A program made the position numbers and the translations under genes. From the IMG/VR virus record IMGVR_UViG_3300025011_000142, positions 1 through 31,328 of that record: DNA of 31,328 nt; one strand, written 5' to 3'. The first letter of the stretch is position 1; each line of letters begins with the position of its first letter. Positions 2,697 through 21,974 of this stretch are shown here, one piece after another. Source of the stretch: a virus. The notes beneath the pieces were generated by a model. It searched no databases. It had not been told where the DNA came from and saw only the letters and a list, made by a program, of their open reading frames with translations.

Positions 2697-5633
2697 TTAT
2701 CGTCTTGCTCTGCTTGATTTATTTGCTATTGCGAAGTATGATGAGGGGGAGATATTTGTTGGACGTTTTTTATTGGTTATGTTCTTTCTTCTAATTTGTT
2801 TCAAATACCACCCTAATAAAGCTAAACAATAAGACCTATCATCATTTAATTCATTTTCTTTATCTTTAGCTAAATCATATCTATAATTTTCATTACTCCC
2901 TGTGTATCTGTAGGTATAAATCAATTCTTCTTTTGCTAAATCAATATTTTTTAATGCCAATTCTTCTTCAAAGTCCAAAGGTGATTTCTTGAAAATTATT
3001 TCTTTTTCTTTAACTATGTTACCATCATCGTCTTCTACATCAATCATTTTTCCTGTATAATTTGGCAATAATAAATATCCTTTTGAATCATATTCATTTG
3101 TAAATGATATTAAATCTAAATTATTCATTTCTAATAATGCATCAAACATTTCTTTTTTATATTTTTGTGGAGACATTAATTTTAATTTATCAACAGCATT
3201 GGGAAATTTATGAATGTGTTCTTTGCACTCATCTTTATCAATAAAACCTTTATGTTTAAGGCCATTCGAATCTTTCCAATCCTCCATAAGATAATCTGCT
3301 ATTGTAGTTCCGTGTCCACCTGCACCTGCATCAATTAGTATACATTCAATATTTTCATAATCTGGATTTCCTTTTCCATTATAATCCAATATCATTTGTT
3401 TTACTAAAGATATTTGCTCAGGTGTTCTCATAGGTGTCTTTTTCTTTTTACCTATATCCACAAAACTGACACCATTGCATATCTCTAATCTTTCTCCAAC
3501 ATTTTCATCAAAAATTACTTCTCCAACTAAACAAACAGAGTTATCATATTGATGTGCTGGATCGTAAGCTATTATAAACTTTCTTTTCCCACGATCATCA
3601 TTTTTTAACACTGGACATCTTAATTGAGAATTTCTAACAATTGTTGCCCTTTTAAAAACCTGTTTATCTCCACCATCAAGACTAAATTTGTTGTAAAACT
3701 CTCTCATTGCTTTTTCTTTATTTTTTCTCATTTCTGCATCAATTTCATCTTTATTGATAAGTGGAACAGGATATAATTTTCCATTATAAGTGGCATTAAT
3801 CATAATTTCACAATTTAAATCACATACAAAATAATTCTTATCTCCTAAAAACATTCGTTTTGCATAATCTTTGTATAAGGTATAATAATAACTATCTGTG
3901 CTTGATGCAGAAGAAATAAAAAGTCTTTGATTAGGTATTTGTTGGGGATAAGTAGTTACATCTAAATCACCACCAAGCCTAAAAGTAGAATTCTGCAACA
4001 AAAATGGTATAGTGGCTACTACATATTCTTCTTCCGTCCAACCACTTTCATCATACACATTTAATGATGATCTTTTTCCTCTATTATTTGTTATGTCACC
4101 ACTTAAACTAGTCACGGAACTGCCATTATATAGTTTATAATTAAATCCAGATTGAGAATGAGTAAAACCATCCGTATTGGCTGTAGATTTAACAAGTTCT
4201 CCCATAAAAAAATCTGTCAATCCTGCAAAACTTTGAATTTCTTTCTTGGCTATTTTTTCAATTTTCATAAACGTATCTTGACTTTGTGCTGAAACATTAC
4301 TTAGAATATAACTGTTGTGTCCAGGTATTAATATTCCTTTTGACATGAGAAAAGGGGCAGCAAGGGTGGAATTATGAGTTACTGTAAATCTTTCTCCACA
4401 TAAATACAAATGCATTGGGTTATTTACCCCAATGCATTTTGTTGGAACACTATTTACTTTCTTGATTGATATTATACTTTTATTTAGCATTCTCTTATTA
4501 AGATTATCTCTTAATCTATTATGTTTTCTCTCTAGTTTAAAACAACTATTAGTTTTATCAACATAAAATAATATTCTATAAGAATGACACATTTTATTGT
4601 TACATAAAACATCTTTTTCTCCAATAGAGTGTTTAATACCAAGACTTGAAAGTAATTGTGAAAACTGCATAGTTAAATTATAATCTTTTTGCACAAACTC
4701 ACATTTACCATTATTATCTCCGTAGCAACTTCCATCAGTATCCATTAAACCTTTTAATAACTCATATCTTTGTTCTATGCTTGCAAATAAATAATCATTT
4801 GGAATATGTTTATTTTTTAATAAATTCATCTTAACTAAATTATTTTTAAATATATTTTGTTTACCTTTTCCAATAATACCAATGTTTATAGAATTAACAC
4901 GGTTAGGGTAACTTAATATTTTTGTATTGTATCCGCACTCTCTAATATTATTATCCATGCTATTCGTGTCATCTAGGCTGCAAGTTATTCTAGTGTCTCT
5001 TGAATTTCCGTCTCCTAACCAAACTCCTAGTACATAGGGATGTATTAACAATTCTTTTTCTTGATATTTAATTGGATTGGTAATAGGCACTCTATATTTA
5101 TATTCTTTACCTTTTCCATCTTTTCTTATATGAACATAATTTCCTACCATATCTTTTGTATGAAGCACTTTATAATCTATACCTTGATCTTTAACTTTTA
5201 CTGTCCATAAATGATTTTCGTCTGCTATTATTTTTTCTCCATCTTCAAATATAACTTCGTAACAATTATGATTATAAAAAATATCAGAAACAAAATCTAT
5301 TTTTGTAGGATTTCCTTGTTCATCTAATACATAATCATCAACAGTCAAATCCCTCATAAATTTAAAACCATTAGGGGTAGGAATTTTAGTATCTAACGCT
5401 AAAGCCTTCCCTCCATTTCTAGTAATACACCAAAGATTATATGCTTTTAACCAAGAATTCATAAATGCATATTTTTGTGCATCAAGGAACTCAATTCCCA
5501 TAAATCTCTCGCAAAATTTAATGGGTGCTTTTCTTCCCCATTGAATTATTTCTGCTAACTTTAAATATCCTTCGAGTTTTTTTTGAGAGAGTTGAATGTC
5601 AGAACTCCTAAGAAAGTATTCCAAAACAATCAA
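2697..5633 (-). CDS. terL: Terminase large subunit interrupted by an intein
   Basis: The precursor has 978 residues. Removing an intein at residues 77-421 leaves a 633-residue terminase, the ATP-driven packaging motor and head-filling nuclease. Extein motifs: a Walker A RNGGK|ST, split by the intein between Lys76 and Ser422; Walker B LNVYDE with Asp528/Glu529; RNase H-like nuclease acidic residues in IIAYDP (Asp691) and ILIDAGAGG (Asp768), with a further acidic cluster near the C-terminus (ELNDDRSY). The ATPase cannot be active before splicing because its P-loop is broken. The start is TTG at 5633, within a TTGA overlap with the stop of the upstream gene, so the two are probably translationally coupled; a weak GTGGGGG precedes it. 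The portal gene follows after 59 bases. Confidence 0.95.
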   Translation of the reverse strand: MIVLEYFLRSSDIQLSQKKLEGYLKLAEIIQWGRKAPIKFCERFMGIEFLDAQKYAFMNSWLKAYNLWCITRNGGKALALDTKIPTPNGFKFMRDLTVDDYVLDEQGNPTKIDFVSDIFYNHNCYEVIFEDGEKIIADENHLWTVKVKDQGIDYKVLHTKDMVGNYVHIRKDGKGKEYKYRVPITNPIKYQEKELLIHPYVLGVWLGDGNSRDTRITCSLDDTNSMDNNIRECGYNTKILSYPNRVNSINIGIIGKGKQNIFKNNLVKMNLLKNKHIPNDYLFASIEQRYELLKGLMDTDGSCYGDNNGKCEFVQKDYNLTMQFSQLLSSLGIKHSIGEKDVLCNNKMCHSYRILFYVDKTNSCFKLERKHNRLRDNLNKRMLNKSIISIKKVNSVPTKCIGVNNPMHLYLCGERFTVTHNSTLAAPFLMSKGILIPGHNSYILSNVSAQSQDTFMKIEKIAKKEIQSFAGLTDFFMGELVKSTANTDGFTHSQSGFNYKLYNGSSVTSLSGDITNNRGKRSSLNVYDESGWTEEEYVVATIPFLLQNSTFRLGGDLDVTTYPQQIPNQRLFISSASSTDSYYYTLYKDYAKRMFLGDKNYFVCDLNCEIMINATYNGKLYPVPLINKDEIDAEMRKNKEKAMREFYNKFSLDGGDKQVFKRATIVRNSQLRCPVLKNDDRGKRKFIIAYDPAHQYDNSVCLVGEVIFDENVGERLEICNGVSFVDIGKKKKTPMRTPEQISLVKQMILDYNGKGNPDYENIECILIDAGAGGHGTTIADYLMEDWKDSNGLKHKGFIDKDECKEHIHKFPNAVDKLKLMSPQKYKKEMFDALLEMNNLDLISFTNEYDSKGYLLLPNYTGKMIDVEDDDGNIVKEKEIIFKKSPLDFEEELALKNIDLAKEELIYTYRYTGSNENYRYDLAKDKENELNDDRSYCLALLGWYLKQIRRKNITNKKRPTNISPSSYFAIANKSSRARR
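4371..5405 (-). mobile_element. Class 3 intein with LAGLIDADG homing endonuclease inside terL
   Basis: This is a 345-residue in-frame insertion in the terminase. It begins ALALDTKIPTPNGF (block A with Ala at position 1 instead of Cys or Ser) and ends TVTHN before Ser+1. The class 3 triad is present: Trp67 in block B (ADENHLW, with the block B His65), Cys324 in block F (PTKCIGV), and Thr343 in block G (VTHN). Class 3 inteins, as defined for mycobacteriophage DnaB inteins, use the block F cysteine as first nucleophile because residue 1 cannot act. Two LAGLIDADG-type motifs (LGVWLGDGN around residue 127 and LLKGLMDTDG around 216) mark an apparently intact DOD homing endonuclease. The boundaries follow from the restored Walker A motif GGKST. 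Confidence 0.93.
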
Positions 5634-10599: not shown

Positions 10600-11916
10600 C
10601 TAAACATAACTATTAATAATCATTTCCAATCCCTTATCATCATCCCATATGAATGATTGTGCTTTCTTTTGAGCACCAACATATCCGCTATTATAAGTCC
10701 AAGCATCATTACCACAAATTGCACTTATCCATCTGAAAATAATACCATTTTGTTCATCTGTCATTTTTTCTTTGTGAAAATGTGATAAATGAAATTCTCT
10801 ATATTTTGCTTTTCCCCATAATTCAGGAACATCATTTTGCATACAGTAGACAATATTTTTTCGTTCGTCTGCCCCGTGTGCGAATCCAACAAGATTTTTA
10901 CCGATCAATATGTATTTGCGATTATTAAATACAGAATCAACCTCTACGTTATCATTATTTAGAAAATGCCAATACATTGCTTCAGTCATTGTAAATGATG
11001 TTACCTTATCGTGATTTCCACCGACATAAATTACTAATACTGGAGCAATATCAGTCAATTTATGTACAATTTGAATTATATTTTTTAACAACAATTTATA
11101 CATTACATCATATTTTACGTCTGTATCTTGTGGCGTACTTTTTGTCGTAGAATTAAAAATATTGTCAATATTTGCCACATCTTGACCAAAAGGAAATATT
11201 ATTTTCTTAATGTTATAGAATTTTACTTTATCTATAATATCGTTAATTACTTGCCATAATCTTTGTATACCAATTTCAGTAGAATATTCATTTCTTGTTT
11301 CATCAACACAACAAAGTTTATCAATATGAACATCTGCCAAATTAATTTCTAAAGTTTTACCTTTGATATTATAAGATTTTTGCTCAACAACTGGACTATC
11401 TAAATCTAATCCTCCTAATACTGTTTTAATCCAATTGGTATCAAATAATTTTGTATAAGGTTTAACACTTATTTTTGAACTATAGAGTATTTTTATCCCA
11501 TCTGCCTTAGTATTCATATTCCACATACTATTCTTGGCAGATGTAATAACCCACTCATCAGGTGAATAACCATGACTTCTCAAAACAAAATCAGGATCTT
11601 TAGATTCTTCTAAACTCATAGCAATCAATTTATCCGACACCTGAGAATTATCACTTTTAATTTCTACAGATTCTTTATAATTAGGCAAAGATTCAACTTT
11701 TACTTCATCCTTAACAACATCTAATTTTCTTAATGTTCCATCTTTATCTTGTTTTCTTTGAGTCCATTTTCTCCACTTTTCACCTGTAGAAAATATCATA
11801 CCATGATATAAATTAAGGTCTTTCCAAGTTGGATTATTTGTTTTAAAAAGTTTTCTATATTTATCTTTATCATTTTTGAAGTCTACGCCGATGAGATATT
11901 TTTCCTCGTCAGTCAC
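10600..11916 (-). CDS. Calcineurin-like metallophosphoesterase
   Basis: The C-terminal 250 residues carry the ordered motifs of dinuclear metallophosphoesterases: DVH (Asp195, His197 in LADVHID), GQDVANID (244-251, with Gln in place of the usual GDxxD glycine-aspartate start), GNHD (300-303), AHG (His347) and HFH (379-381). The relatives I know in phages are annotated as exonuclease- or phosphatase-like, and substrates can be DNA or nucleotides. The N-terminal 190 residues contain a Trp/Lys-rich segment (KWRKWTQRK) that could bind nucleic acid, plus a linker region. The start is GTG at 11916 with GGAGTG upstream. The gene lies 29 bases before the ClpP-like gene. Metal-dependent phosphoesterase activity is likely; the substrate is unknown. 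Confidence 0.85.
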   Translation of the reverse strand: MTDEEKYLIGVDFKNDKDKYRKLFKTNNPTWKDLNLYHGMIFSTGEKWRKWTQRKQDKDGTLRKLDVVKDEVKVESLPNYKESVEIKSDNSQVSDKLIAMSLEESKDPDFVLRSHGYSPDEWVITSAKNSMWNMNTKADGIKILYSSKISVKPYTKLFDTNWIKTVLGGLDLDSPVVEQKSYNIKGKTLEINLADVHIDKLCCVDETRNEYSTEIGIQRLWQVINDIIDKVKFYNIKKIIFPFGQDVANIDNIFNSTTKSTPQDTDVKYDVMYKLLLKNIIQIVHKLTDIAPVLVIYVGGNHDKVTSFTMTEAMYWHFLNNDNVEVDSVFNNRKYILIGKNLVGFAHGADERKNIVYCMQNDVPELWGKAKYREFHLSHFHKEKMTDEQNGIIFRWISAICGNDAWTYNSGYVGAQKKAQSFIWDDDKGLEMIINSYV

Positions 11917-12096: not shown

Positions 12097-12136
12097 TTGA
12101 TTAATCCTCCTTATATAGAGAACATTAAATTATTAA

Positions 12137-12165
12137 GGGACACCTAATATGAATTTAGATGTCCC
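12137..12165 (-). terminator. Hairpin between two small genes, possible weak terminator
   Basis: An 11-bp stem with one G-T pair (GGGACATCTAA with TTAGGTGTCCC) and a 7-nt loop lies about 70 nt after the stop of the gene ending at 12235 and is followed by TTAATAATTT. The stem is strong and the T-tract is poor, so it could be an RNA-processing or stabilising structure instead. Confidence 0.5.
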
Positions 12166-12234
12166 AATCATCCTTACTCCTAGCAATTATATGAAGACAG
12201 TTTATAAAAATTTTTCAAATTCAATGATAAATAA

Positions 12235-12459
12235 TTAGAACTTACCCATATTTTTCAAATTCTTAGAAATTTCGTTAAACAATTGTTTGGAATCAATTTT
12301 CTCATTAACTTTGTTTATTTCTAATTGAAAAATTCTCTTTTCTAAAGAACACAACCAAGCGATAAAAGGATCTTCTTCATTATCAAATAAATGACAAGTG
12401 TTTACAAAATTAGAATTACTATCATCTTCTGATATATTTATATCCTTAGATTTACACAA
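12235..12459 (-). CDS. Small hypothetical protein, 74 residues
   Basis: The start is TTG at 12459 behind TGGAGATGA with 9-nt spacing. The product is charged, with a helical second half (LEKRIFQLEINKVNEKIDSK) that could form a short coiled coil, and has three cysteines. No family is recognised. Its translation start lies just after the 3' end of the long structured non-coding region 12473-13321. Confidence 0.6.
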   Translation of the reverse strand: MCKSKDINISEDDSNSNFVNTCHLFDNEEDPFIAWLCSLEKRIFQLEINKVNEKIDSKQLFNEISKNLKNMGKF

Positions 12460-12472
12460 TTATTTTCATCTC

Positions 12473-13321
12473 CATTTATAAAATATTATAATGGCAGTTT
12501 TCATCTGGGATAACCACTGCCAAACCCATTTAGTAAGTCTTTGTCTTAGGTTAATGATAAATAAACCATTAACTGTCCCTGTAGAGGACATTGTTTTATT
12601 CTATCGTTCTCATCTGAGCCATATTGTTGATATGTAAGGGAAGACGGTCATTTGCTTCCCTATTTGTCGTAATTTATGAAGATAACCACTAAATTAATCG
12701 CAGTTGCCTTATTTGAATTCTTACAAGAAAATAACTTTCTGTAACTCTCTTGCTATTTCAACATTGAGTCATAACTTTTCGTAACTATTCAATGTATCCA
12801 TATCTATATATTTAACCAAAAGCATTGCAAAACAAGACTATTTACAAATTATTTAATTATATTTCCAATTTATTATTAAAATTACTATCCTCTTATTTCT
12901 AAGAGAGTATTTTTAAAATACTATAATTTTATATTATTTGTTCTTCTTGTTTTTAGAATTTAATCCTAAAATTTATCAAAGGATGATTAGCGAACGATTA
13001 TTGTACTAATGTAGTAATGAACTAAAGATATATCGAATTATTGAATAATGAATTTATGATTAGTGATAGATTTGCGACTTATCTTTACTATTAAAGTAAA
13101 ATCTGCTTGTTTAGATTTACCAGTTTCAAATGTTTGAGATGTATGTAAAGTTACATAATCTTGCATTATTTGAATGTTGTTCTTCAATTTGAATTTACAT
13201 CTGTATATTCCGATGTGCGAATTAGTCTGTATTTTGCTTTGCTCTTGGTTAGTTGTTTTAATAAGGAGAATATGTGGTTAGTCATATCCCCTTATTAATT
13301 GTCTTAGTTGAATTTAAGATA
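12473..13321 (-). ncRNA. Large structured non-coding region A (about 850 nt)
   Basis: No coding frame is found in about 850 nt, in a genome where gaps are usually under 300. On the minus strand, in order: a 16-bp stem (arms 13283-13298 and 13258-13274) with loop ACTAACCA; an AT-rich middle with short hairpins such as a 7-bp stem at 12906-12922 and CTCTTA-GAAA-TAAGAG at 12890-12905; and a 3' domain with consecutive stems at 12721-12744, 12670-12696 (7 bp), 12638-12660 (6 bp), 12574-12590 (5 bp), 12550-12573 (7 bp) and 12492-12522 (7 bp). Two of these loops show the same AGTGGTTATC. Size, density of stems and nearby tRNA recall the phage ornate RNAs GOLLD and ROOL, but I cannot match it by eye. 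The boundaries are only the flanking genes. Confidence 0.5.
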
Positions 13322-14008
13322 TTAACCAATACTGTCTAAATATTTACAAACAATATCTGCAGTAGAATCATGAATACTGTAAGGAAATTCATACTCAACA
13401 ATATCTTCCATCATTGCTTTTTCTATAGAAATACTGAGTTTATCAGCTTTTTCTAGTAACTGTTTATAATTATCGCTAACAATATTTTTATCAAAACTTA
13501 TTGTTTTAGTAACCAATACATCATATCTATACGGAACTTCTTCCCCATTGATATTGAACTTGAATCCCTGTGCTACAGTCTTTTTCTCGTCTGTTTTTAT
13601 ATTGATAAGACTATTTAATACTCCAGCTAAATTTCTAGATTGTTTTGCATTTGATATAGCAGAATCTAAACTAAGATTGTTATTATCTTTAGTTTCAATC
13701 AATATATTTCTTTTTGCTATTTCTACAGAAATTTCTAATTTTATCTTCTCTGAAATTAATTTTCCAACAAGATTAATTATATCAACCGTTGAAGCATCTG
13801 GATATTCTCTAATTGTGGTGGTATCTAGTTCCTCATTTTGTGCTTCTGGATTTGATTTTTCTTTAAGATGTGATTCAATTACAGAAATAGAGTTATTCTT
13901 ATTAGAAAGATATGAAGTTAGAGATGAAATAGTTTTATCAATATAAACAAGAGTCCTAAATGATTCTTTTAGTGAAATTGATGTATTAGTGTTTTGTGAA
14001 TTAGACAT
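13322..14008 (-). CDS. Hypothetical helical/coiled-coil protein
   Basis: This 228-residue, mostly helical protein starts at the ATG at 14008 with GAAGGAA upstream. Helices around 12-60, 75-110 and 175-200 alternate with Asn/Ser-rich linkers. A segment around 110-175 (ISNAKQSRNLAGVLNSL, then VPYRYDVLV) loosely recalls the small DIP1984-type coiled-coil proteins of Firmicutes phages, but the resemblance is not strong enough for a call. It lies between two long structured non-coding regions, so its transcript probably includes them or is processed from the same RNA. Confidence 0.65.
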   Translation of the reverse strand: MSNSQNTNTSISLKESFRTLVYIDKTISSLTSYLSNKNNSISVIESHLKEKSNPEAQNEELDTTTIREYPDASTVDIINLVGKLISEKIKLEISVEIAKRNILIETKDNNNLSLDSAISNAKQSRNLAGVLNSLINIKTDEKKTVAQGFKFNINGEEVPYRYDVLVTKTISFDKNIVSDNYKQLLEKADKLSISIEKAMMEDIVEYEFPYSIHDSTADIVCKYLDSIG

Positions 14009-14045
14009 TTATTTTTCCTTCTTTCAATTTGTATTTTCTTCTTTG

Positions 14046-14171
14046 TTATTCCTTTTCATAGGGAGTCAGTTTGTATGTCTTAGAATCGTTACTAGCACTA
14101 CAGTCATGTGGGGCTAGTAATTCCTTTATTTGTTTGAGTTCATTTAGAATTTCGGTTAGTATTACATCCAT
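14046..14171 (-). CDS. 41-residue microprotein
   Basis: ATG at 14171 follows AGAGGTGA with 6-nt spacing and opens a 41-codon frame ending in TAA. The N-terminal half is an amphipathic helix (MDVILTEILNELKQIKELLA) of the kind seen in many short phage coiled-coil proteins; the rest is Ser/Lys-rich. The function is unknown. It starts right after the terminal hairpin of structured region B. Confidence 0.6.
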   Translation of the reverse strand: MDVILTEILNELKQIKELLAPHDCSASNDSKTYKLTPYEKE

Positions 14172-14662
14172 AATCTTTTCACCTCTAATATTTTAAATAT
14201 GAAGGTGAGTCTACCCCTATAAACTCACCTTATTTGTAATTTGACATACTCATATATTTCATCAGTCTCATTGCAGTATGCCATTTGTCTCTATCACTAA
14301 GTTTAAATAAACTGTGATTAACGCCATAGAGAACAAACAATGAGTGATGAGGGGAATATCTAGTCGGCAATTAAGCCATTGTGTCATCCTAACCCTTTAT
14401 CTAAAGATGACTGTGTAGCACCCACATACACGCCTTACAGCATGGCTGATAATTACCTTTTTTGCTACATTTCCCTAATCTTGCTGTGAGAGTGACAATT
14501 GTGCACATCATCTCTCTCTAGATAAATTATCAGACCACAATAGTAGTGTCGCAGTCAATTCATTTGATATATCGTCCTAAAGTTAACGATGCCCCACCAT
14601 TTCTTTAAGTGATATATTAAATGTTAGACTATCAATTCTATCTCATATTATTGTGGTTAATC
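14172..14662 (-). ncRNA. Large structured non-coding region B (about 490 nt)
   Basis: There is no coding frame. The minus strand folds into an ordered series of long-range stems: a 13-position stem with one mismatch (14611-14623 with 14561-14573) enclosing a 7-bp stem (14603-14609 with 14576-14582); a perfect 9-bp stem (14525-14533 with 14446-14454) enclosing an 8-bp bulged hairpin (14508-14516 with 14488-14495); a 6-bp pairing (14464-14469 with 14414-14419) that crosses the 9-bp stem and so makes a pseudoknot; GCCAT/ATGGC closing a GTCATC/GATGAC stem; a nested arm closed by CTCATTG/CAATGAG (14338-14344 with 14267-14273); and a final perfect 9-bp hairpin (14223-14231 with 14202-14210). This many consistent helices strongly suggests a functional RNA. 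The identity is unknown; GOLLD/ROOL-like is the closest idea. Confidence 0.6.
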
Positions 14663-14845
14663 TTACTCTTCTTCTGTATTATCAGATTCTCCATCTAAAG
14701 ACAAATACTGATCACAACCATTGATTGTAATATCTAAAATTCCTGCTTGCTTTTTTGTACCTTCTAGTTTATACAGTTTTGTAGACCACTCACAAACACT
14801 AGCCTTTACACAAGATTCACAGTATTGGTTATTTAAGTTTGCCAT
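14663..14845 (-). CDS. 60-residue Cys-containing hypothetical protein
   Basis: ATG at 14845 follows AAGGTGG, spaced somewhat far. The product has CESC (9-12), Cys18 and Cys44, enough for one metal site, and an acidic tail SDNTEEE. No family is recognised. It lies between the tRNA gene and structured region B and ends one base before that region. Confidence 0.65.
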   Translation of the reverse strand: MANLNNQYCESCVKASVCEWSTKLYKLEGTKKQAGILDITINGCDQYLSLDGESDNTEEE

Positions 14846-14909
14846 ATATTAATAAATTCCACCTTTTAATTTTATTTTACTATTAAATTTGCCTTACGCT
14901 AATTTTATA

Positions 14910-14984
14910 TGGAGCTGATTTTCAGGATTGAACTGAAGACCTACACGTTACAAATGTGTTGCTCTACCACTGAGCTAATCCAGC
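14910..14984 (-). tRNA. tRNA-Thr (anticodon UGU)
   Basis: A 75-nt cloverleaf including an encoded CCA: acceptor GCTGGAT with AATCAGC, D arm GCTC/GAGC with loop AGTGGTA, anticodon arm ACACA-TTTGTAA-CGTGT giving anticodon TGT, and T arm TTCAG-TTCAATC-CTGAA. There are two blemishes: A6-A67 in the acceptor stem and A31-C39 at the top of the anticodon stem. UGU reads ACA, a codon favoured in AT-rich phage genes. It sits 13 bases after the HU gene and is probably cut from the same transcript. Confidence 0.92.
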
Positions 14985-14997
14985 TTATAAACTTTAA

Positions 14998-15279
14998 TTA
15001 AACAATTGCCTTAACTACTTCTTTCAGATTCTTGCCTGCTTTAAATCCTGGGGTTTTTGTTGCAGGAATCGTCATTGTTTCTTTAGTCTGTGGATTACGT
15101 CCAACACGTTCAGAACGATCACGTACCTCAAAAGTGCCAAATCCCACCAAACTAACTTTGTCATTTTTACCAAGTGTTTCTTCGATTACTGCAAATGTTG
15201 CTGTTACTGCTTCCTCAGATGCCTTTTTTGTCATACCAGTTTTCAATGCTACTTCTGCTACCAATTCTTGCTTATTCAT
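14998..15279 (-). CDS. HU-family histone-like DNA-binding protein
   Basis: This 93-residue protein has a complete HU fold: N-terminal helices MNKQELVAEVALKTG...KKASEEAVTATFAVIEETL, the beta-saddle VSLVGFGTFEVRDRSERVGRNP, the DNA-contacting arm with GRNPQTKETM and the proline region IPATKTPGFKAGKNLKE. HU dimers bend DNA without sequence specificity; phage relatives such as SPO1 TF1 compact or regulate phage DNA. The length is the family norm and it looks intact. The start is ATG at 15279 with AAAGGGGA upstream. It is followed by a tRNA and preceded by the PhoH gene. Confidence 0.95.
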   Translation of the reverse strand: MNKQELVAEVALKTGMTKKASEEAVTATFAVIEETLGKNDKVSLVGFGTFEVRDRSERVGRNPQTKETMTIPATKTPGFKAGKNLKEVVKAIV

Positions 15280-17549: not shown

Positions 17550-18341
17550 TTATTTATTTCTATATTCTTTTTGCTTGTCGGCATTATAATTTCTCCATAT
17601 TTCTTTCCAACATTCCTTACAATATTTCTGATTTTTCCCTGTTTTCTTTACCAACTCTTCGCATCCATCATTCTCACATTTAATTACTCCATTATTACCA
17701 TTAAACCAATCAAAATAATAACCAATATTATAAAAATTATTTACTTCAAATACAAAATTCTTACTTAACTCAATATTTTCAATGAACAATAAATTAACTC
17801 TCCCCCTATTTCTAATATCTATATATCCCATATTAGATAAATCATTAATGATAATATTTATATCATATGTATCAGGAATCTTAGACATTTGTTTAATTTC
17901 TTTATATAATTCCACTTTTCCACCAAAAAAGTTAAACTTTGATGCATTATTAAACTTTTGCAAACATAATTCCTTATTTAATTTTGTTTTAATCATTAAT
18001 GTAAACAATACTTTTTTGTAATATTCCTCAATTTCTAATCCATTGATATATTCAATTTCTTTATCTGTAACTGGAATACTGTTTATCACTATTAGTTTAT
18101 TAACCCCTTTACTCCCATATCTTAATGCAGAATTAATTATCTTAAAATACTTTACCCTATTAAATTCTATAATGTACTTATCACAAAACTCGTAGATCAA
18201 TATCTTTCTTTGTTTCGCAGATATTTTCATTTCCTGTTTATAATATTTTACTAGTATTTTTAATTCATATGCTATATACTTAGTTAAAAATCCTTCCTTT
18301 AATAATCTTTCCGCATATAACTTCTCATTATATTTTATCAA
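17550..18341 (-). CDS. Hypothetical protein with C-terminal zinc finger
   Basis: This 263-residue basic protein starts at TTG 18341 behind GGAGGT, in a TTGA overlap with the stop of the RNA polymerase gene, so translation is probably coupled. The N-terminal 200 residues are helical and Lys/Tyr/Ile-rich. The last 45 residues hold a zinc-finger-like cluster, CENDGCEELV and YCKECW, followed by a basic tail KQKEYRNK. Similar C-terminal fingers occur in many phage proteins of unknown role. Being coupled to the polymerase gene, it may be a partner or specificity factor, but only the context says so. Confidence 0.75.
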   Translation of the reverse strand: MIKYNEKLYAERLLKEGFLTKYIAYELKILVKYYKQEMKISAKQRKILIYEFCDKYIIEFNRVKYFKIINSALRYGSKGVNKLIVINSIPVTDKEIEYINGLEIEEYYKKVLFTLMIKTKLNKELCLQKFNNASKFNFFGGKVELYKEIKQMSKIPDTYDINIIINDLSNMGYIDIRNRGRVNLLFIENIELSKNFVFEVNNFYNIGYYFDWFNGNNGVIKCENDGCEELVKKTGKNQKYCKECWKEIWRNYNADKQKEYRNK

Positions 18342-21127
18342 ATTTTTACCTCCATTAATTTATATTTTTTATTCAAATACTCTATAGTTCCTTCTTTATC
18401 TTGCATAGGAAATAGGATAGGTGATTGTATTCTATTATTCTTTACATTCTGAAACATATATTTCCCATAGATATTCCATAATAAATCTTTATTAGAACTT
18501 GGTAACTTTATATAGAATATTTCTACTAAATAATTTACTAATTCATATATATTAGAACATATTTTTGTCATATCCTTTTTGAACTTTTCATATATTCCAT
18601 TTGTTTGTGACTCTATACTATCATCATGTTTTCCATTAGTAGATATTGCATTAGTCCCAATATTGCTTAAGTCTCTAATCTCATCTTTGAAACCCTTATA
18701 TCTTTCTAATACTTTACCGTATACCTCTTCGTTATTTATAATTCCTTGTTTTTGATATTGAGTATGTAAATTATCTGTATTTTCAACTTTTAACTTATTC
18801 TTGATATTAAAGTTTATAGATTCAATATGTCTACATATGTTGTTTGCCACGCAATCACTGTCAATAACTGGCATGTACTTATGATAGGAGTTTATAAAGT
18901 TTTGTTCGTCTATAGTTTTTCTTTTCTGATTCATCAATTGTTCTAATGGAATTCCAAATTTCTGTTTGCAAGATAAGTCATATCCACTAACATGTTTATT
19001 ATATTTAACTCTAGTGTGCTTATACAAGTATATAAAAAAGTAAGGATGCCTATCTAATAATAAACTATTATGTAAATTCTTTTTTATCTTTAGTTCCTCT
19101 GAATCATTCTCATCATATTTTTCTCTCTCAACCCATTTATAAGGTATTCCTTTAACTTCTTTCCCAATCTTTGCTTTATCAATTTGAGCAGACTGTAATT
19201 TTGTACACATTTTTAGTCTATTCATTGTTATTTTATACTCTTCACTATCTTCTTTAAATAAAGGCAATAATGCATAAGCAGATGTACTTTTATTTGTAAT
19301 AGACCCAATAATTGAACCAAATGCAAATAAGTCAGCATTAAATAAATCAATAGGTTCTAATATTTTCCTATCTGATTTTGGAACTTCATATACTACTGGT
19401 AATTCATCTTCATATATTCCACCAATAATGGTTGTATCTGAAGTGGTTGCTATTGCGTCCATGTCCCAGTCACTTCCGGCCCAGTGCATTGTTTCCATAC
19501 CATGAACATTAACAATGATACCTGATGTACAATATTTATACCATTTATCTAGTTCGTCATTTTTTACTAAATTAAGTTTTAAATGTTCACTTCTATAAGT
19601 CAGTGGTGCTCTCATAGAATCTACAATTTTAACACCTTTATTATTCCAATAATTTGAATAATATTCTTTTTTACCTAAAAGACCAGTAACTTCTAATCCA
19701 CAAACATGTTGCATCATAGCGTAGGGATCGCTCACTAAGGTTTCAAAATTTCCATCGAGTAGTAAATCCCCCAAGCAAGCTCTCTTAATTTTTTTCTTAA
19801 CAAGATTGTATATTTTGTTCCTTATATATTTATCTTTTATTAGTTCATGATTAGCAATCAAACTCTTAACCCAATAATTTTTAGGACTATTTATATACTT
19901 CACAAATGATTCTTCTGAAATATTTTCACCAATCAGAAATAATAAGGTATAGTAGATATTATCTGATGTTACTCCATTTATCCAATTTACTGTTTTCTCA
20001 CATATTTTGTCTATATCAGTTTTACTAAGCTTAAGAGTTTGATTAAACTGATAGTTCATTTTAAGAATATCTTTATCATCTTTTGGACTATATAGTGATA
20101 TTCCCCATTGTAATTTATTCTTTATACAATTTTCTTGATATACTTCAATACTATCAAAGGAGTCCCAAAGTTTAAATTGCCCCTCAGAAATTATTACATC
20201 TATATTTTTAAGATTTACTTTAATATTATTTCCTTCTGAATTTTTATATACTGTATTAACTTCATAATTCCCTTCATTAACTTCTTGACAAAAAGTTTTT
20301 ATATCGAATACACAGAGCATCCCTTTCAAATAGTTCTGTCTTATGCACCATTGGGATGGAACATAATCTAACCCTAATTCTTTGCTCCAAAGTTTAGCTT
20401 GTTCATAACTTATAAGTCCTTGTCCGTCAAATCGATTAAACTCTGCTGTAATATCTTTAACTTTAATAATATCATCTTCTGATTTTTCTGTCTCAGTAAC
20501 AAAATTAACTTTAATATCCATAGAGTTATTTAAGTCTGGAACAACGCAAAATCTAGGGGTACTTACAACCTTAGTATTTGACCCTGCTAAACCTCGATAC
20601 GCATTGAATTTTGATGGGATAAGTTTTTTATTCTTATCCCTGCCATTATCAAGTATATCTGTCAATCTATCAACTATTGCTTCATCACAAAAAACTACTG
20701 TGGATACTCTAGATTGAGATGCAGATGACGAAAATCTAACAAATCGTTTGTTATTAAGTAATAAGGAATTTTCAAATAGATATTTATAATGTGATTTATG
20801 TTCCATTACTACAGTTATGTATTCTGGAATAAACATCATATCATAAATTAACTTCTTTAACTCAATTATTCTATCTGAATTTTCCTTAGATGATTTTTGT
20901 TTCTTTAATTTATTCCTCTCAGCATACCATTCTTCAAGTTTTAATAAGTCTACTTGTTTATTTTGAATATCTCTGATGCTTCTTAATATTTGGTTGTCTG
21001 CAAGGGCTATGATCTCACCATTTTCTTGTGCTTCTTCAAATGTTAAGTCAAATTTGTATTCGTATTCCTTTAGGCGAGAACTTTTAAATTTCATGGTATA
21101 GAATTGGCGATTACTGATGGTCAACAC
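18338..21127 (-). CDS. YonO/QDE-1-like single-chain RNA polymerase
   Basis: This 929-residue protein is a DNA-dependent RNA polymerase candidate of the two-barrel type shared by SPbeta YonO, crAss-like phage polymerases and eukaryotic QDE-1. First barrel: FDGQGLIS (233-240) and, downstream, CIRQNYLKGM with Lys268 in KG. Second barrel: SDWDMD (552-557), where Asp553, 555 and 557 are the expected metal-binding residues. The family usually reads DxDGD, so the glycine is Met here. Downstream segments such as IGSITNKSTSAYALL (about 614-628) and QIDKAKIGKEVKGIP also fit family memory. Such enzymes transcribe phage genes without host subunits. The start is unclear: GTG at 21127 has AGGAG directly against it, and the gene overlaps the end of the upstream endonuclease gene by 17 nt. 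Confidence 0.82.
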   Translation of the reverse strand: MLTISNRQFYTMKFKSSRLKEYEYKFDLTFEEAQENGEIIALADNQILRSIRDIQNKQVDLLKLEEWYAERNKLKKQKSSKENSDRIIELKKLIYDMMFIPEYITVVMEHKSHYKYLFENSLLLNNKRFVRFSSSASQSRVSTVVFCDEAIVDRLTDILDNGRDKNKKLIPSKFNAYRGLAGSNTKVVSTPRFCVVPDLNNSMDIKVNFVTETEKSEDDIIKVKDITAEFNRFDGQGLISYEQAKLWSKELGLDYVPSQWCIRQNYLKGMLCVFDIKTFCQEVNEGNYEVNTVYKNSEGNNIKVNLKNIDVIISEGQFKLWDSFDSIEVYQENCIKNKLQWGISLYSPKDDKDILKMNYQFNQTLKLSKTDIDKICEKTVNWINGVTSDNIYYTLLFLIGENISEESFVKYINSPKNYWVKSLIANHELIKDKYIRNKIYNLVKKKIKRACLGDLLLDGNFETLVSDPYAMMQHVCGLEVTGLLGKKEYYSNYWNNKGVKIVDSMRAPLTYRSEHLKLNLVKNDELDKWYKYCTSGIIVNVHGMETMHWAGSDWDMDAIATTSDTTIIGGIYEDELPVVYEVPKSDRKILEPIDLFNADLFAFGSIIGSITNKSTSAYALLPLFKEDSEEYKITMNRLKMCTKLQSAQIDKAKIGKEVKGIPYKWVEREKYDENDSEELKIKKNLHNSLLLDRHPYFFIYLYKHTRVKYNKHVSGYDLSCKQKFGIPLEQLMNQKRKTIDEQNFINSYHKYMPVIDSDCVANNICRHIESINFNIKNKLKVENTDNLHTQYQKQGIINNEEVYGKVLERYKGFKDEIRDLSNIGTNAISTNGKHDDSIESQTNGIYEKFKKDMTKICSNIYELVNYLVEIFYIKLPSSNKDLLWNIYGKYMFQNVKNNRIQSPILFPMQDKEGTIEYLNKKYKLMEVKI

Positions 21128-21974
21128 TCCTATCTAATAAAATATAATCTTCTTTGAAAAACCAACAAAATCCACCAGCAGTTTTTCTTTCGTTCCTGCA
21201 ACATTGTGATATATTAGTATTAAAAACACCAGTATTTTTATAGGCATCAACAGCACTATTATATTCAGCAATAAAAGAATAATCCTTATTAGTTTGAATA
21301 ACCGGCTTCTTACTAGCATCTCCAATTTTTATTTTAGATTCTTCAGTATGCTTTAATCCAATGTGAGACTCACTAATTTTGTTCTTAGTTTCATCACTAA
21401 GATGTTTTCCAAATGCCCAGTGTCTCTCTCTTGTTTTAGCTTCTCCTAATTTCTTTATATGTTCAACAGAAAATTGTCTGCCAAAGTTTGGATTTTTATC
21501 TCCGCTAAAAGCTATACTACGCCTATTTCTTGCTTCTTTTGATAACTTTCTTTTACTAGCCGATATACTCATTTTTAATCTAGATTCATTACTATATTTA
21601 ATTCCTAATACCCCACCTCCACCTTCTGTACTATTGTATCCTTTTTTGTAAGTATTGAATGTTTTAATATAAAAAATTTCATATTTATCTAAACTTTCTT
21701 TTAAATCTAAACGGTTCGCTTCTTTTATAAAATGAATACTTTCAATAGAAAAGTTCTCGTATCCGTATTTATTTATTGCATTATATAATTTATTTTTTAT
21801 TTTTAGATTCTGTAAATGTTCTTTCCATCTCTTCTCAATATTTCTTGTTGTCTGCCCAATATATTTTTTATTGTTTATTAGATTTGTAATACAATATATG
21901 TAACCTTCAAACCCTCTGTCATCTGTATAATCAATTGTATTAATAATGTTTTCTCCGACTTTACAAGTTAACAT
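21111..21974 (-). CDS. GIY-YIG homing endonuclease with NUMOD3 repeats
   Basis: This 287-residue protein has a GIY-YIG nuclease domain: GYIYCIT (24-30), KKYIGQT (36-42), then Arg and His in RNIEKRWKEH, NAINKYGYENF and a Glu in YEIFYIKTFNT. After it come NUMOD3-type repeats (KNPNFGRQFSVEHIKKLG, HLSDETKNKISESHIG, KHTEESKIKIGDA) and a C-terminal NUMOD1-like DNA-binding helix-turn-helix (AVDAYKNTGVFNTNISQCCR). It is a free-standing homing endonuclease. The first 22 residues before GYIY are an unusual leader. The start is ATG at 21974 with a strong AGGAGAAG site. Its end overlaps the RNA polymerase start by 17 nt, so the polymerase may depend on its translation. Confidence 0.9.
   Translation of the reverse strand: MLTCKVGENIINTIDYTDDRGFEGYIYCITNLINNKKYIGQTTRNIEKRWKEHLQNLKIKNKLYNAINKYGYENFSIESIHFIKEANRLDLKESLDKYEIFYIKTFNTYKKGYNSTEGGGGVLGIKYSNESRLKMSISASKRKLSKEARNRRSIAFSGDKNPNFGRQFSVEHIKKLGEAKTRERHWAFGKHLSDETKNKISESHIGLKHTEESKIKIGDASKKPVIQTNKDYSFIAEYNSAVDAYKNTGVFNTNISQCCRNERKTAGGFCWFFKEDYILLDRSVDHQ

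Follow-up and report, generated by a model that had tools for sequence, protein, structure and literature searches.

Gene order around the locus

The window analyzed here, a stretch of 31,328 nucleotides of viral DNA (IMG/VR record IMGVR_UViG_3300025011_000142), carries all of its main genes on the minus strand, which is also the sense strand of the interval that concerns us, 14172-14662. Read along that strand (all features below lie on it), a gene for an HU protein in the YonN position (14998..15279, 56% identical to SPbeta YonN) is followed by a tRNA-Thr gene (TGT; 14910..14984, found by ARAGORN and Rfam) and by a gene for a 60-aa Cys-containing protein (14663..14845), which has relatives in contigs L004, L020, L030, L032, and L060 and no match in searches of PHROG and Pfam. 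The interval comes next, in agreement with the first-pass annotation, which had proposed a structured RNA after a tRNA-Thr and one small gene. It stops one base ahead of a 41-aa ORF (14046..14171), which directly follows the last RNA module described below (M2) and has similar ORFs in L003, L014, L032, and L044. Beyond lie the gene for a 228-aa protein (13322..14008), our anchor for retrieving relatives, and region A (12460..13321), where the island is again poor in ORFs and most relatives align colinearly at 71-79% identity. A 74-aa ORF (12235-12459) follows region A, and conserved ORF-less sequence occurs again at 12110-12234, upstream of the exonuclease gene. This gene (metallophosphoesterase/exonuclease, 10600..11916; PHROG 704, E 1e-58) is in the YonJ position and matches SPbeta YonJ weakly (E 2e-4). 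The island occupies the space between the HU and metallophosphoesterase genes, and protease, terminase, and portal genes come after it.

The 228-aa protein has no family match, and its best fold-search matches, coiled-coil look-alikes without TM support, were set aside. In L046 (reverse strand), L026, and L027, an ORF (499 aa; 404 aa in L027) either immediately precedes the 228-aa gene or falls within its start. The insert in L046 is preceded by ATGTCTAATTC, which suggests an intron-like or homing-endonuclease insertion.

Among the gene products of the phage is a YonO-type RNA polymerase (18338..21127), a 929-aa single-chain protein 58.5% identical over its full length to a protein of Bacillus phage BUCT082. 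The latter is an SPbeta-group phage, and YonO of SPbeta itself is a distant relative of the BUCT082 polymerase. BUCT082 also has a relative of the portal protein (E 4e-26), and from the polymerase relatives we infer a host among the Bacillota. For several related contigs, which are among the largest, the search for YonO returned no match. Directly upstream of the polymerase gene lies a GIY-YIG homing endonuclease gene (21111-21974). The terminase gene (2697-5633) has an apparent intein within its ATP-binding motif (GGK / ALALDTKIPTPNGF...THN / STLAAP), which we deduce from the sequence itself together with shared matches to PHROG families of helicase loaders and primases.

Four structured RNA modules

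The minus strand of the interval is predicted to fold at -137 kcal/mol versus -105.7 +/- 5.9 for shuffled sequences (z -5.33, 0/100), and the plus strand less strongly (z -4.04). Windows of 150 nt mostly show just modest stability (mean z -1.5). There is no ORF of at least 50 aa in the interval on either strand, the longest stop-free run being 46 codons. GC content is 0.33-0.40 versus about 0.19-0.35 in the other intergenic stretch, an enrichment that had been remarked on before. Rfam was searched at the gathering score over the whole window and at E <= 5 over 12400-14920, where E-values vary with the length searched; no family matched the interval, and mir-29 and sR11 scored far under their cut-offs.

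As far as sequence comparison can tell, the interval is four separately folding RNA modules, in the order M8, M9, M3, M2, and not one RNA. M8 (14529..14658) is a long nested arm closed by a 9-bp stem, ACCACAATA/TATTGTGGT (14657-14649 with 14542-14534), and is stable alone (z -4.73). It has relatives in L030, L035, L060, L032, L015, and L034, and 11 of its 47 predicted pairs show double changes (six sequences). The small hairpin M9 (GAGAG..CTCTC, 14482..14525) recurs in L006, L031, and L060; its fold alone is not significant (z -1.28), and it has no double changes. M3 (14364..14477; z -2.03 alone), common to L003 (91%) and L052, combines a conserved TGTAGC/GCTACA pairing (14469-14464 with 14419-14414) with a GTCATC..GATGAC hairpin (14411-14383) that becomes GTCTTC/GAAGAC in L052, a compensated change. 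We do not claim the outer stem of its minimum free energy fold, GGTAATTA/TTAATTGCC, because L003 appears to break the pairing.

M2 (14199..14358; 14 distinct sequences, z -3.79) has a 13-position helix (14350-14338/14273-14259), an 8-bp helix that crosses it (14282-14275 with 14250-14243) to form a true pseudoknot, an internal arm, and a 9-bp 3' hairpin (AAGGTGAGT/ACTCACCTT, 14231-14202). The loop of this hairpin is an invariant GGGG, complementary to a CCCC near the M2 5' end. Over these 14 sequences, pairing is kept in 97.0% of pair cells (98.2% in the 13-position stem), compared with 38-45% pairing in slid controls, and double-change cells number 15 against 3.3 in shuffles. The 3' hairpin accounts for most of this covariation. 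With one double change in the pseudoknot helix and none in the CCCC/GGGG contact, these two rest mainly on conservation. Almost none of the gaps in M2 has a length divisible by three, which argues against coding, and the 3' hairpin is not a terminator, since no T-run follows it.

Thus the first-pass annotation was borne out as to the existence of a structured region, and its elements have probable counterparts: its 13-position stem and pseudoknot in M2, its 9-bp long-range stem and nested arm in M8, and its 9-bp terminal hairpin at the 3' end of M2. It had named the uncompensated breakage of the 13-position and 9-bp stems in homologs as the result that would speak against it; the former is kept as given above, and the latter is compensated in L032 (M8) and, as the same stem of a skipping-rope RNA, in L031. 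Of the four modules, M2 and M8 have comparative support, with little covariation in the sequences of M9 and M3. That the stretch is AT-rich spacer folding by chance, or a missed gene, finds some encouragement in the modest 150-nt windows; we give it practically no credence, given the overall z of -5.33, the lack of an ORF, the gap lengths, and above all the covariation of M2, which already refutes it.

Gain and loss of modules in related phages

Using the 228-aa gene as anchor we retrieved 26 related loci, and further contigs were added through module patterns. The locus opens with HU, in many cases followed by a tRNA and in most by a small protein gene; the variable slot comes next, and after it the 228-aa gene (in loci that have one) and region A. 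In L050 and L056 the array leads directly into region A, without the intervening 228-aa gene, and in L006, L049, L052, L047, and L035 there are tRNA genes among or after the elements. Among the first contigs compared, the slot measures 165 to 1026 nt. It is filled by short elements, often 85-97% identical between contigs and differently combined, which are interleaved with tRNA genes and small ORFs and keep one orientation.

We assembled the module strings by hand, merging long and short skipping-rope forms. Twenty-six contigs (the window and 25 others, mostly from one sample series, so that counts are not independent samples of nature) yield 25 distinct strings drawn from about 17 island elements. 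To the M8-M9-M3-M2 of the window correspond, for instance, M1-M2 in L005, M8-M9-M5-M1-M6-M11 in L060, skipping-rope-M9-M5-M10-M1-M2-M11 in L031, and M5 alone in L012. The stretch 14172-14662 occurs at one place per record; its full 490-nt combination is found only in one 100% identical contig, and its modules occur separately elsewhere. In spite of this turnover, order is nearly fixed: among the 52 element pairs that co-occur at least twice, both orders are seen in one, versus 36 in shuffled strings. The elements behave like genes that are gained and lost within a cluster, as happens in phage tRNA clusters. The gain and loss of modules points to many exchangeable RNAs instead of one, and since the order stays while modules come and go, independent RNAs acting in trans are an easier explanation than one cis structure. 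We read the island RNAs as exchangeable and probably trans-acting.

The motif GTAAG[AT]CC recurs in unrelated island modules (L003 5272, L005 4969 and 5700, L032 3542, L067 2786, and others), one of them in SPbeta. Counted in the modules of the window it is absent, and we did not use it.

These data bear on two alternatives. The island could be one large ornate RNA, particle-forming and similar in function to GOLLD and ROOL, whose optional domains differ between phages. Like those two it is a large phage RNA locus near tRNAs, the 5' region of GOLLD itself varies and its linker sometimes contains tRNAs (PMC12286853), and a fixed module order would also fit one RNA with optional domains. Nevertheless, each module that we looked at, M2 and M8 among them, is closed by a stem of its own; a slot can consist of one module only (L012), the array includes protein genes, and there is no Rfam match. 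We regard this alternative as unlikely. Specifically, the GOLLD and ROOL models matched in neither of the two Rfam searches described above (the whole window at the gathering score; 12400-14920 at E <= 5), and the interval does not behave as a single conserved RNA of about 500-800 nt. Of the first-pass proposal, a structured RNA beside a phage tRNA is upheld by the comparative evidence, and a single 490-nt RNA of GOLLD/ROOL type gives way to four independent modules.

Alternatively, the elements could act as DNA, whether as recombination targets, as packaging signals, or as miniature mobile elements, and their folds would reflect inverted repeats. The local exchange of 85-97% identical blocks would suit this reading, and SPbeta packaging sites have been proposed nearby, around yonR-yonP (PMC8270828). 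Against it stand a pseudoknot with 97% of its pair cells kept, a sense strand that folds more strongly, modules that hold one orientation and order, and a stretch confined to one place per record, and we consider this explanation very improbable.

Correspondence with the SPbeta late operon

In SPbeta (NC_001884; L067 2316-3996) a gap of 1.68 kb without annotated genes separates yonN from yonK. An "unannotated non-coding RNA" in this gap belongs to the late operon, which depends on the YonO polymerase, and a YonO start site (coordinate 2225998 of B. subtilis 168) has been published upstream of yonK and this RNA (PMC5467207). We found that the gap starts, just after yonN, with a skipping-rope-like RNA (29.6 bits, below the cut-off of 36.7; E 2.4e-5 in a search of 191 nt), and that a DUF3800-VIII RNA lies near its end (47.5 bits; the family also matches the B. 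subtilis control genome). The content of the gap is itself patchy among SPbeta relatives.

At the sequence level, no convincing stretch is shared by the window modules and the SPbeta gap. The M2 model gave nothing above noise in SPbeta-type loci, and the public phage collection holds no DNA-level relatives and no M2. The link to SPbeta therefore rests on position, polymerase, and skipping-rope. An M2 pattern search in bacterial genomes returned one match, in Corynebacterium pelargi, which we take as chance because its GC-rich flanks are unlike M2 and the M2 model finds nothing at the locus. Nonetheless, the shared position and neighbors, on the same strand between HU (YonN) and a YonJ-like exonuclease, indicate that the island occupies the late-leader RNA position of the SPbeta group. 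We are confident that the stretch belongs to a modular late-leader RNA island of SPbeta-related phages with YonO-type polymerases. The positional match also makes the question of what the island does testable in B. subtilis.

An element of ~115 nt (TACCTCCTTACACGGGTC...) is found in SPbeta-group phages and Bacillus Herelleviridae (L066 8085-8200, L067 3130-3244, L075 2605-2735); its stem TGCACA/TGTGCA is apparently replaced by GGTGTG/CACACC, a compensated change, and the copy in 015DV004 precedes the portal gene. Skipping-rope also occurs in Streptococcus and Enterocloster phages. The presence of an SPbeta-gap element in Herelleviridae and of skipping-rope elsewhere shows that such RNAs are shared between unrelated phages.

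From its position the island could also be a leader that acts in cis on the late operon, its folds protecting the long transcript, blocking termination, or timing the translation or processing of downstream genes. The island heads the late genes, which share one strand, and has the published YonO start site as precedent; in phage ICP1, too, the most abundant transcript is an ORF-less region at the start of the lysis cluster (PMC7567579). Set against this are the strong turnover of content at a constant position, with slots from 165 to 1026 nt, the occurrence of skipping-rope and the SPbeta element in unrelated phages, and the missing T-run after the M2 hairpin. On balance we find a cis-acting leader somewhat unlikely.

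RNA families in the islands and their possible function

The islands hold three recognizable families: skipping-rope, DUF3800-VIII, and, in one contig only, abiF. Skipping-rope (RF02924) scores above the cut-off at the first slot position in L003, L004, L031, and L020. To our knowledge, its function is not known. It has been described as a phage RNA with a pseudoknot (PMC7779021; PMC8501573). M8, the first module of the window, occupies the same slot and has the same outer stem as skipping-rope has in relatives; within that stem, skipping-rope has three hairpins and M8 one long arm. Because the interior differs and the skipping-rope model does not match M8 at E <= 5, we regard M8 as a stand-in for skipping-rope, not a member of the family. 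The two are never found together (six and seven contigs, overlap 0), which would happen by chance with a probability of about 0.12, so that mutual exclusion is suggestive only. The abiF RNA lies at the end of an island (L028 2181-2217; 41.6 bits, cut-off 37), and no Abi_2 protein was found on the 12-kb record of L028, a short fragment. M2, M3, M8, and M9 are structured modules that match no Rfam family.

By extension from the published SPbeta counterpart, the island would form the 5' portion of the late operon transcript made by the phage polymerase. In this scheme the modules would be accessory RNAs that work in trans, retained or discarded in the manner of phage tRNAs, and most likely they would serve to occupy host or defense RNA-binding proteins. 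AbiF RNA neutralizes the AbiF toxin by direct binding (PMC12373285), and phages are known to use RNAs to occupy defense proteins, as RNA anti-CRISPRs (PMC10651486). Given this precedent and the presence of abiF, skipping-rope, and DUF3800-VIII in the islands, a role as decoys or antitoxin mimics appears the most likely function, and would account both for the turnover and for these families. It is the function we favor, by analogy and tentatively, as a hypothesis. The full reading, a modular late-operon RNA island transcribed by the phage polymerase, with trans-acting modules that are likely decoys, has in our judgment an even chance of being right. It is conceivable, if rather doubtful, that phages of the SPbeta group, giant relatives included, maintain a dedicated, recombining RNA island at the late-operon head in which each RNA neutralizes a different host or defense RNA-binding protein. 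Were this true, the island would be the RNA counterpart of an anti-defense gene island, a library of exchangeable structured RNAs.

Comparison with known systems

Like GOLLD and ROOL, the locus is a large region of structured phage RNA with tRNA genes nearby: the tRNA-Thr gene lies close by in the window, and tRNA genes are found at many of the related islands. It differs from them in that GOLLD and ROOL are each one conserved RNA, and the island is an array of separable modules. We know of no function established for large phage ncRNAs near tRNAs since their discovery.

With abiF RNA, type III antitoxin RNAs, and RNA anti-CRISPRs the likeness is one of proposed mode of action, in which an RNA occupies a host or defense protein. 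The window differs from abiF RNA in that it has no abiF motif and the partner protein we propose is hypothetical.

A further close parallel is the SPbeta yonN-yonK RNA. The two differ in that transcription has been shown for SPbeta, that a DUF3800-VIII RNA is present there, and that no sequence common to SPbeta and M2 or the other modules was found. The skipping-rope-like RNA at the start of the SPbeta region is a point of likeness, since relatives of the window phage have skipping-rope at the first slot position. In both, an ORF-less region follows the HU gene and precedes the exonuclease and structural genes, in a phage with a YonO-type polymerase.
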